Positions 19,214-23,430 of a stretch of 64,000 bases of DNA are shown here, in pieces. A program made the translations under genes and the position numbers. Position 1 is the first letter of the stretch, and the number at the start of each line of letters is the position of its first letter. The stretch lies in the NCBI GenBank assembly GCA_016185205.1, contig JACPOA010000047.1, positions 1 through 64,000 of the forward strand. The letters are read 5' to 3'. The DNA is from Hyphomicrobiales bacterium. Lineage in GTDB: Bacteria; Pseudomonadota; Alphaproteobacteria; Rhizobiales; Xanthobacteraceae. Below the pieces are notes generated by a model. That model saw only the letters and a list, made by a program, of their open reading frames with translations, was not told the DNA's origin and did no database searches.

Positions 19214-19450
19214 ATGCCTTTCATGGCCCCCTACGTTCGCCCCTACATCTCGCCCAAGGAGCGCGCGGAGAACCGCGCGCGCTGGATTCGCATCGGATAT
19301 TGGACCGCGGTGACGATTCCGGCCGCCATCGCGTTGATGATGTTCGGCTACAGCGACCAGGCGCCAGCCTGGCTGCGCGAGATCACGGTCAAACTGGATG
19401 CGTTATTCGGCTTTCCGGTGCTGGGGCTGATCAAGGCGATCGCGGCATGA
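19214..19450 (+). CDS. Small membrane protein, 78 aa
   Basis: A 78-residue protein with a basic N-terminal region (SPKERAENRARWIRIGYW), one clear membrane helix (TAVTIPAAIALMMFGY) and an amphipathic C-terminal part that may dip into the membrane. The first ATG is at 19214, immediately after a 24-bp hairpin; an ATG at 19223 (MAPYVRP) is an alternative. Its TGA overlaps the start of the DUF983 gene by four bases, so the pair is translationally coupled. Function unknown. Confidence 0.6.
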   Translation: MPFMAPYVRPYISPKERAENRARWIRIGYWTAVTIPAAIALMMFGYSDQAPAWLREITVKLDALFGFPVLGLIKAIAA

Positions 19451-21104: not shown

Positions 21105-21869
21105 CTATGCCCATGCTGCGATCTTGTCCTTCAAATGCGGGAAGCGCTCGCTCAGCAGCGAGCCGGGATAATAAGTCGGCTTGAACGCCGGATGGGCGCG
21201 GATATTGTCGAACCAAGCGACCACGCGCGGCAGGTCCTGCCAGCCCGGGATGCCGAGATCGTCTATGCGCACCAGCGCCGGCATCACCGCCACGTCGGCG
21301 AGCGTCATGGCTTTGCCTTGCAGCCAGGGGCCGCCGCTCGCCGTGATTTCGGCGTCCATGCGCTCATAGGCGCGGCGCAGGCGGGCGAGCGCGGCGTCCA
21401 TTTCCGCCTTGGGAAATCCGGTCTGCCCCATGGTCATCATGAATTCGCGCCGCAGCGGCTTACTCTCGGCCATCGCCACGAAGGCCGCGCGGCTCATCTT
21501 CTGGAAGCTCGGCAGGAAGGCGAGATTGAAGGTCGGCACCCGCACCGCGGCGGCCGGCATCTCGTCGATGAAATGCATGAGCGCGCGCATGCGGGCGCGG
21601 GCGACCGGGTCCTCCGGGGTGAAGCTGTCTTGCGGCGCGACCTCGTCGAGGTATTCGGTGATGACGGTGGAATCGGTGACGATGGCGCCGTCATGGTCGA
21701 GCGTGGGCACCACCCCATTCGGATTGAGCTTGAGGTAATCGGGCTTGAGCTGGTCGCCTTCCAGCAGATTGAGCTTGATCTCGTTGAAGGCGAGCCCCTT
21801 GGCGTTGAGCACGAAGCGCACGCGCTGGCTGCAGGTCGACTGCGGCGCGTTGTAAAGCGTGAAGGCCAT
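21105..21869 (-). CDS. Glutathione S-transferase family protein
   Basis: A 254-residue cytosolic GST. The thioredoxin-like N-terminal domain shows the catalytic region NAPQSTCSQRVRF (Ser11/Cys14), the glutathione-binding cis-proline loop NPNGVVPTL and the DSTVITEYLDE motif; the all-helical C-terminal domain carries the N-capping-type KAMTLADVAVMPALVRID. It is somewhat longer than the usual 200-220 residues because of an insertion around residues 95-150. Sequence style recalls the LigE/LigF-like and other proteobacterial branches; substrate unknown. GGAG lies eight bases before the ATG. It is flanked by the two composite repeats and divergent from the small-RNA candidate. Confidence 0.88.
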   Translation of the reverse strand: MAFTLYNAPQSTCSQRVRFVLNAKGLAFNEIKLNLLEGDQLKPDYLKLNPNGVVPTLDHDGAIVTDSTVITEYLDEVAPQDSFTPEDPVARARMRALMHFIDEMPAAAVRVPTFNLAFLPSFQKMSRAAFVAMAESKPLRREFMMTMGQTGFPKAEMDAALARLRRAYERMDAEITASGGPWLQGKAMTLADVAVMPALVRIDDLGIPGWQDLPRVVAWFDNIRAHPAFKPTYYPGSLLSERFPHLKDKIAAWA

Positions 21870-21954
21870 GAACGGCTCCGGTTTCGATCGTTTTGGCTCA
21901 GATTGCAGGATGATGCGTCAGTGATCCAAAATGATCCACGGTATATTTATGGGC

Positions 21955-22090
21955 ATTTTACTTGTGGGCGGCGCGCGCGACGGCTTCACTGAGATCGTGC
22001 GCAGCCGCCGTTTTCCTCCCTTTAGGCTTAGACGGTGGCGTGAATCCTCCACCTTATGCACACAGGGCCCCGCAAGGGGCCCTTTTTTTA
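21955..22090 (+). ncRNA. Candidate anti-Shine-Dalgarno small RNA
   Basis: A 394-base gene-free gap holds an RNA-like unit. A stem GCCGCCGT (22004-22011) pairs with ACGGTGGC (22032-22039, one G-U) and presents TTTCCTCCCTTTAGG in its loop; a single-stranded stretch with a second CCTCC (22046-22050) follows; then comes an intrinsic terminator. Two exposed CCUCC motifs plus a terminal hairpin is the layout of alphaproteobacterial anti-SD sRNAs such as the suhB/mmgR class. The 5' end is a guess based on TATATT at 21942-21947; the RNA could be shorter. No convincing protein frame competes. Confidence 0.5.
22064..22090 (+). terminator. Strong intrinsic terminator
   Basis: AGGGCCCC at 22064-22071, loop GCAA, GGGGCCCT at 22076-22083, then six more T. 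An eight-pair perfect stem with a tetraloop and T-run, by far the clearest Rho-independent terminator in the window, and it serves no protein-coding gene. Confidence 0.85.
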
Positions 22091-22095
22091 TTGTG

Positions 22096-22258
22096 CGGCC
22101 TCATGGTGAGGAGCCGTGCGCAGCACGGCGTCTCGAACACGCAAGTCGGCTTTAGCCGACTTGCGCATCAAACTTGCCGATGTCGGGTAAACCCGACATC
22201 GGTGGGCCGCCCCATCCTTCGAGACGCATCGCTTCGCGATGCTCCTCAGGATGAGGCG
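22096..22258. repeat. Composite palindromic element, copy B
   Basis: Second copy of the element at 20940. The outer arms (GGCCTCATGGTGAGGAGC and GCTCCTCAGGATGAGGC) and both inner hairpins (CGCAAGTCGGC TTTA GCCGACTTGCG at 22140-22165; CCGATGTCGGG/CCCGACATCGG) are retained, but the double-hairpin module lies between the two GTCTCGAA/TTCGAGAC arms, whereas in copy A it lies outside them. Confidence 0.8.
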
Positions 22259-22263
22259 GACAG

Positions 22264-23217
22264 CTACTCCAACCCGGTCCCGACGTTCTTGTTTTCCGGC
22301 TCAAGCTTCATACCGGCGGCAAGCGCCATGGTCTCCGCCAGCGCGGCGAAATCCTTGGCCAGATATTCTTGCGGGTTTTTCTGCAGCATGGCCGCGCCGA
22401 AATGCGACTGCAGCACCTCGCGCGTCGCCGCGGTCACCGGCATCGGCACGTCCCACTCGCGGGCGAGCTCGAGCCCGAGATCCAGGTCCTTGCGCAGCAG
22501 CTCCGGCGTGAAGGTGGTGGTCCAGTCGAGATTGACCAGCGCCGGCGTCTTGTACTTGGTGAACATCGAGCCCATGACGCCGTTGTTCATGAAGGCGAGG
22601 AAGGCGTGGCGCGGCACGCCCATCTTGTTGGCGAGCAGCGTGATCTCGATCAGGTTCTCAATCACCACGCCGAGCATAACGTTGTGCGCGATCTTGCAGA
22701 TGCGCGCGAGCTCGCCGTCGCCCACATAGGACACGCCCTGCGGCGCGAACACCTCGATCAGCGGCATGGCGATCTTGGCGTCGGCTTCCGGTCCCGAGAC
22801 CACCGACGACAGCTTGCCGGCCTTGATCACCTTGGCATTGCCGGACACCGGGGCGGCGATGAAGCTCACGCCCTTCTCGGTCAGCCGCGTGCGGATGGCG
22901 GCGGATTCCTCGACAGAAATCGACGAGCAGTCGACCAGCATCTTCGGCTTGTTGGCGCCCGAGAGCAGGCCGTCCTTGCCGAACACGACCTGCTCGACAT
23001 CCTTGCCGGTCGACACGATCGCGAACACCACGTCGCAACCGGCGAGCTCGACCGGCTTGTCGACAATCTTGCCCCCCTTGGCGGCCAGCGGCTCGGCCTT
23101 GGCGCGGGTGCGGTTCCAGATCGTCACGTCGTGGCCGGCCTTGAGCAGGCGCTCCGCCATCGGCGTGCCCATGCGGCCGACCCCGATCCAGCCGATCTTT
23201 TGTGCAGTCTTCGACAT
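22264..23217 (-). CDS. NAD(P)-dependent 3-hydroxyisobutyrate dehydrogenase family protein
   Basis: A 317-residue beta-hydroxyacid dehydrogenase. The Rossmann motif IGWIGVGRMGTPMAERLLKAG opens the protein, the substrate-binding signature appears as FIAAPVSGNAKVIKAGKL, and the catalytic lysine is in ARICKIAHNVMLG. The family oxidises 3-hydroxyisobutyrate, tartronate semialdehyde or related hydroxyacids, or reduces succinic or glyoxylic semialdehydes. GGGAG nine bases before the ATG at 23217 decides the start; the frame extends two codons further to a TTG. It is divergent from the ABC operon, and may act on its substrate. Confidence 0.87.
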   Translation of the reverse strand: MSKTAQKIGWIGVGRMGTPMAERLLKAGHDVTIWNRTRAKAEPLAAKGGKIVDKPVELAGCDVVFAIVSTGKDVEQVVFGKDGLLSGANKPKMLVDCSSISVEESAAIRTRLTEKGVSFIAAPVSGNAKVIKAGKLSSVVSGPEADAKIAMPLIEVFAPQGVSYVGDGELARICKIAHNVMLGVVIENLIEITLLANKMGVPRHAFLAFMNNGVMGSMFTKYKTPALVNLDWTTTFTPELLRKDLDLGLELAREWDVPMPVTAATREVLQSHFGAAMLQKNPQEYLAKDFAALAETMALAAGMKLEPENKNVGTGLE

Positions 23218-23430
23218 CGCCAAACTCTCCCGTTGAAATTGTGCCGCGAACCCTGGCGGGCTTGGCGGGGCTTTAGCCGTTCTGCCGCGAAATCGCCAGT
23301 GGCGTACCGCTGGGTGGGTATGCCGCGACGCCGATGCTTGTGGCGGCCGTTCAAAGCGTTATCCTGCCGCCGCCACAGGTCAAAAGACCCCGGTTAAGGG
23401 GCCTGACTTCCGGAGGAGCGCTAAGCCCCA

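Follow-up and report, generated by a model that had tools for sequence, protein, structure and literature searches.

Comparison with related genomes indicated that positions 21997–22090 (plus strand) of the window, as we call the whole stretch of 64,000 nucleotides that was analyzed, are very likely a real RNA gene, whose product of 94 nt was delimited with a covariance model (R1) and its homologs. We consider it quite probable that this RNA is a genus-restricted, trans-acting anti-Shine-Dalgarno sRNA, driven by an activator and repressing its targets by masking their Shine-Dalgarno (SD) sequences. The features that point to this reading are a free-standing gene, a covarying hairpin followed by exposed and invariant anti-SD bases, an intrinsic terminator, and a conserved promoter-like region overlapped by a direct-repeat box.

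A free-standing RNA gene in an intergenic gap

The RNA gene lies in a gap bounded by two minus-strand genes which, from our own reading of their sequences, are GST-like (21105–21869) and 3-hydroxyisobutyrate-dehydrogenase-like (22264–23223). On the plus strand, the gap contains, in this order, the box, two promoter-like hexamers, the 94-nt RNA with its terminator, and a nested palindrome. Since the GST-like gene is divergent and the dehydrogenase-like gene convergent with respect to the RNA, this is neither a leader nor a 3′UTR; it has its own terminator and a conserved promoter region, as befits the free-standing gene of a trans-acting anti-SD sRNA, and is independent of the neighboring genes. 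At the 43 relative loci examined, which are about 3 kb or shorter and in some cases stop at contig ends, the GST gene is present in 24, at least one of the two neighbors in 34 and both in 21; the nine loci with neither include L093, a match of 31.0 bits that has neither the seed nor the box and was left out of the set of sequences compared below.

Mean pairwise identity is highest in the seed (1.00), followed by the box (0.86), the terminator (0.84) and the −10-like hexamer (0.79), compared with 0.40 for the spacer between the hexamers and 0.26 and 0.32 for the upstream and downstream flanks, respectively; because identity drops to background in both flanks, the conserved unit extends from the box to the T run. 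The 5′ end of the RNA is most likely at about 21997, judging from the promoter spacing and from where conservation begins, and not at 21955, where the preliminary description had placed it and which falls within the putative promoter.

The intrinsic terminator (22064–22090, plus strand) consists of an 8-bp stem with a GCAA loop (22064–22083), followed by the T run, and three of the eight pairs are changed on both sides among homologs. It had been singled out as the best terminator in the window, and indeed no other scanned site has a stem as rich in G+C that is directly followed by an uninterrupted T run; a 12-pair stem at 19214–19187 is longer, with a weak tail. Around the RNA we found two terminator-like sites versus a mean of 2.0 in shuffles; this count is no higher than expected and, therefore, the case for the gene rests on conservation.

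Directly 3′ of the terminator there is a nested inverted repeat of about 170 nt (22092–22260; DNA fold z −9.57), which is probably a dispersed palindromic element. The palindrome suggested to flank the RNA as a mobile element is real, but it is not part of the RNA gene: among relatives L009–L037, the exact 11-base arm, TCAGGATGAGG, occurs only in L011, near the RNA gene, and in L021, about 670 bases away from it. The arm is also found on the contig of L136, whose copy of the RNA is a divergent one.

Fold and covariation of the RNA

The 94-nt RNA has a predicted fold of −44.1 kcal/mol (z −5.08), equaled by none of 200 shuffled sequences, whereas the longer interval proposed earlier, in which promoter bases are mixed in, yields a z of −4.26. 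The hairpin of the preliminary description, with its stem at 22004–22011/22032–22039 and the loop sequence CCTCCC at 22015–22020, was confirmed, as was a second CCTCC at 22046–22050. This hairpin (P2, GCCGCCGU/ACGGUGGC) covaries, with seven of its eight pairs altered on both sides and still paired, and 97.1% of its cells are paired in an alignment of 30 sequences that includes the window copy. The members of this alignment mostly carry the GST gene (found, as above, at 24 of the 43 loci), so that the stem conservation anticipated for relatives sharing that gene was borne out.

In the same alignment, the complete named structure, of 21 pairs, is formed in 98.4% of the cells, versus 93.7% in shuffles and 37–59% when the structure was slid. 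Changes on both sides occur in 10 pairs and 28 cells, against a mean of 6.0 in shuffles, and none of 500 shuffles reaches 28; these shuffles ignore relatedness, while the slid control keeps it. RNAalifold independently predicts identical helices, plus one extra P2 pair. The short closing helix P1, formed by GUGCG (21997–22001) and UGCAC (22057–22061), is paired in 30/30 sequences with a single varying pair (GU to GC), and what speaks for it is mainly this invariance.

The comparison was extended to 43 sequences by adding to the 30 aligned ones 13 others, comprising divergent orthologs and second copies. These 13 sequences keep the layout, except that three of them (L090, L096, and L097) have no P1 3′ strand and do not keep this helix; in L088 and L092, P1 reads GUGCA/UGCAC.

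An invariant anti-SD seed and a variable loop motif

The second CCTCC is contained in GAATCCTCCAC (22042–22052), that is, GAAUCCUCCAC in the RNA, which we designate the seed. It is invariant in 30/30 aligned sequences and the full 11-mer is present in 40/43; nine of its bases, AUCCUCCAC, located 3′ of the P2 hairpin, mostly unpaired and complementary to SD sites, are identical in 43/43 sequences, the 13 further members among them having been selected among the matches to a model in which the seed is included. Its mean unpaired probability is 0.80, versus 0.40 for the whole RNA, and exceeds 0.7 in 28 of the 43 sequences. The seed reaches past the SD sequence on both sides, and the predicted duplex is of −18.1 kcal/mol with the full complement versus −11.2 kcal/mol with a generic SD. 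The seed is, then, conserved, accessible and SD-complementary, the combination to be expected of a trans-acting anti-SD sRNA. Together with the free-standing gene and the intrinsic terminator, these exposed bases favor the earlier suggestion of a trans-acting RNA, which it probably is.

In the window copy, the loop of P2 contains, at 22012–22021, an exact copy of the 10-mer core of the MmgR/SisA RNAs, UUUCCUCCCU, which occurs only twice in the whole genome, here and in the suhB/MmgR gene. The loop displays CUCCC or CCUCC in 30/43 sequences and neither in 13/43, and the exact 10-mer is found in 12/43. With a mean unpaired probability of 0.58 over the 30 sequences bearing it, the loop motif is less open than the seed.

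A direct-repeat box overlapping the putative promoter

The 19-bp direct-repeat box, TTTATGGGCATTTTACTTG (21946–21964, plus strand), has half sites 11 bp apart and overlaps the −35 region. The promoter-like hexamers (21962–21990, plus strand) are TTGTGG (21962–21967) and TTCACT (21985–21990), separated by 17 nt, and the second one is conserved, reading TTSAST in 35/43 sequences. A strict scan for the sigma-70 consensus did not list this pair at 21962–21990. TTCACT does not have the A at position 2 that is usual in a sigma-70 −10 box, a point against the reading proposed above.

Half sites with this distance of 11 bp that overlap the −35 region are frequent for activators of the OmpR class, and the box is probably an activator site, as predicted from its arrangement. 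Its exact pattern was found at 45 sites in 43 genomes, with 39 of them at loci of the RNA or of its second copies. The remaining six sites are not associated with the RNA and are outnumbered by the 15 obtained with a reversed-pattern control in the same 43 genomes; therefore, a regulator that is private, or that has very few other targets, is likely. Two of these six sites, L176 (genome G001) and L177 (G016), are from close relatives; there the box precedes a gene for a small predicted membrane protein, in a locus that is conserved between both.

Two known regulators were considered and discarded as a match for the box. CtrA-type sites have the form TTAA-N7-TTAA, to which the box shows only a loose fit. 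A ChvI site was considered since ChvGI drives an sRNA of Caulobacter; the ChvI motifs given in PMC9731502, TTGC-N3-GCAA and N-GCC-N8-GCC, do not fit.

Distribution and copy number

Using blastn with a fragment of 170 bases (E ≤ 1e-5), we found homologs in 30 of 42 relatives of the same genus and in none of 57 others, where the best match (E 4.2e-4) spans terminator bases alone. With model R1, a score of 41 bits or more is obtained in 39 of the 43 genomes of the genus (counting that of the window), with no match at that level in the other four (G008, G013, G017, and G026); among 248 genomes of the family, nothing outside the genus exceeds 34.8 bits. A second model comprising promoter plus RNA (R2) had matches at E ≤ 0.01 in 26 of the 296 genomes of the family that were searched, each of them within the genus, to which 30 of the 296 belong, and gave no match at this threshold in the 266 family genomes of other genera, although its strict filters lose weak matches. 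Training sequences match by construction and, therefore, the negative result outside the genus is the informative part. The exact box plus seed pattern matched one of 397 genomes of the order, the window's own, and blastn at E ≤ 1e-5 found nothing in plasmids or phages. In a collection of named genomes this pattern was present on 35 contigs, of which 14 are labeled as Pseudolabrys, 20 as other Rhizobiales/Hyphomicrobiales or Proteobacteria and one as Bacteroidetes; the latter (L120) is a contig from a metagenome-assembled genome (MAG) that was probably misbinned or mislabeled. These searches show that, in the genomes covered, the RNA is restricted to the genus that includes Pseudolabrys.

Four genomes contained a second copy. 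Those from G018 (L088, 161–254, plus strand), G005 (L091, 989–1077, minus strand), and G031 (L092, 1038–1125, plus strand) keep a form of the box and the seed, and differ in the stem sequence, while that from G041 (L101, 1069–1165, plus strand) is near the main type.

No family of Rfam 15 reaches its cut-off at the RNA locus, and a search of 12 relative loci retrieved nothing but a tRNA. The best weak matches (Mcr7, traJ_5, and Pseudomon-groES) were discarded, being far under their cut-offs and lying wholly or mainly on the neighboring palindrome. Elsewhere in the window, Rfam identifies a chrB-b RNA (RF03086; 1241–1291, plus strand, 49.9 bits) and a Rhizobiales-2 RNA (RF01723; 7141–7236, plus strand, 41.3 bits, barely above the cut-off of 40). 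In the open-licence literature we found no report of the RNA, of AUCCUCCAC or of any sRNA from Pseudolabrys. The locus adds a family of structured RNAs without a match in Rfam 15, and the genus is represented here mostly by environmental MAGs. Being limited to one lineage, with an invariant seed and only one promoter box, it would be a clean case for the origins of anti-SD sRNAs with control of their own, and it is also suited to asking how targets come to be held in common with the old MmgR family.

Proposed mode of action and candidate targets

We infer the following sequence of transcription, activation, target pairing and repression of translation. The promoter, with the direct-repeat box of 11-bp period lying across its −35 region, would initiate transcription near 21997; an activator, perhaps a response regulator of the OmpR type, would bind this box and switch on the RNA, and the transcript would end at the intrinsic terminator. 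The RNA would then fold into P1, the covarying hairpin P2 and the terminator, presenting GAAUCCUCCAC in single-stranded form, with the loop of P2 adding a further CUCCC in the majority of members. The exposed bases would pair with the SD regions of target mRNAs, blocking binding of the 30S subunit, possibly with the help of Hfq, which assists related sRNAs. By analogy, repression most likely operates through masking of the SD, because the well-studied RNAs closest to this one act where translation begins: NfeR1 is described at the translation start of ntrB (PMC10746234) and SisA upstream of the start codon (PMC12559287).

The full 11-nt seed complement precedes an ATG at five sites in the 43 genomes; three of these are the antisense strand of the RNA itself, and no conserved target of full length was found. 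The complement of nine nucleotides occurs at 58 sites in 25 genomes, of which 55 were used: one lying on the antisense strand of the RNA and a duplicate that overlapped another site were dropped, and the site G010:C29 was omitted in error. Judging from their starts, several of the longer frames at these sites resemble exported transporter-binding and outer-membrane proteins. Among distinct reading frames of at least 80 codons, the only ones scored, signal-peptide-like proteins were deduced for 17 of 29 genes with GTGGAGGAT before the ATG (16 of 28 without one member of the near-duplicate pair L240/L264, which was kept in the count), versus 13 of 32 among control genes that share the SD but have flanks mismatched to the seed, for which 60 of 110 sites (112 minus two overlapping duplicates) were drawn randomly. 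The difference is not significant (p = 0.13) and, therefore, we claim no target.

The RNA might instead be a two-seed regulator with a private switch, which we regard as rather unlikely. It would unite the old MmgR core, carried by the loop of P2, and the new invariant seed, so that one signal would override part of the MmgR regulon and act at the same time on a second set of mRNAs; one dedicated activator controlling little else is proposed here because the box is almost unique per genome. If this were true, the sibling copies, which have the same kind of box and seed and other stems, would constitute a small private RNA regulon.

Alternative explanations

It is distinctly unlikely that the RNA is a divergent paralog of the alpha-r8 RNAs (suhB/MmgR/SisA), even though their parts are in the same order and the window copy has their exact core in the P2 loop. 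Membership in suhB/mmgR, raised in the preliminary description, was not supported: the RNA is below the gathering cut-off of the corresponding model RF00519 (41 bits), and this model is absent from the matches listed for the RNA at E ≤ 10, a list that hides one lower-scoring clan match. The genome has its true suhB/MmgR gene at a separate locus (contig C64; L141, 1474–1550, minus strand), which scores 74.6 bits and is beside the only FGase match of the genome, and R1 in turn gives no match at E ≤ 10 in the suhB locus. Additionally, the core of our RNA sits in a loop instead of separating the hairpin from the terminator, and only the minority of homologs noted above have the 10-mer in its exact form.

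We give still less weight to a decoy or sponge, whose CCUCC would titrate G-rich RNA, or ribosome–mRNA contacts in general, instead of acting on particular mRNAs. Such a role would agree with the failure of the seed-site searches to reveal a conserved target, and a sponge RNA from Caulobacter is described as pairing with alpha-r8 RNAs (PMC12559287); however, the invariance of AUCCUCCAC in all 43 sequences runs past CCUCC in both directions, which generic titration does not need.

Finally, a functional minus strand, on which GGUGGAGGAUUC would be the SD for a small protein, is hardly credible: the strand reads AAGGTGGAGGATTC, with an ATG directly after it in three homologs, but a start codon of any kind appears within the next 13 nt in only 6/43 sequences, it is the plus strand that has the T run as well as the spacing of TTTACTTG and TTSAST, and length differences are not multiples of three.

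Comparison with known anti-SD sRNAs

We thus retain the reading of a genus-restricted anti-SD sRNA, which can be set against four known groups. The CcsR/CuckooRNAs of Rhodobacter are stress-controlled sRNAs with CCUCC-type loops, processed as tandem copies from an mRNA; the RNA described here has a loop of this type, but is a single free-standing gene. AbcR1/AbcR2 (alpha-r15, RF02345) are trans-acting anti-SD sRNAs, and some of the seed sites found here precede genes resembling transporter-binding proteins, although the excess of signal-peptide-like proteins is not significant (p = 0.13); with their model, the RNA obtains 16.2 bits (E 0.8) versus a cut-off of 40.

NfeR1 (alpha-r14, RF02344) is likewise an anti-SD sRNA of Rhizobiales with its anti-SD bases in unpaired parts. 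Its family is defined in PMC10746234 by three hairpins, each with CCUCCUCCC, whereas our RNA has one hairpin plus the terminator and does not contain CCUCCUCCC. Its score is 12.7 bits against a cut-off of 58.8, and membership in alpha-r14, whose model the preliminary description had named for a check, is not supported.

The closest likeness is to alpha-r8 (suhB/MmgR/SisA-D, RF00519), which share with this RNA a short intergenic gene, a hairpin, a single-stranded CCUCC-type core, a terminator and the sequence UUUCCUCCCU. As described in PMC12559287, the alpha-r8 core is single-stranded, 3′ of a weak hairpin and before the terminator, and linkage to FGase is seen in most species with a single copy. 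In contrast, the window RNA holds UUUCCUCCCU in the P2 loop and has GAAUCCUCCAC between hairpin and terminator; it is found in a single genus, with its seed AUCCUCCAC, the extra helix P1 and a box of its own, and is not beside FGase. We regard it as a new family within a kind of sRNA that is already known, and it looks like an RNA that would act in the manner of alpha-r8.
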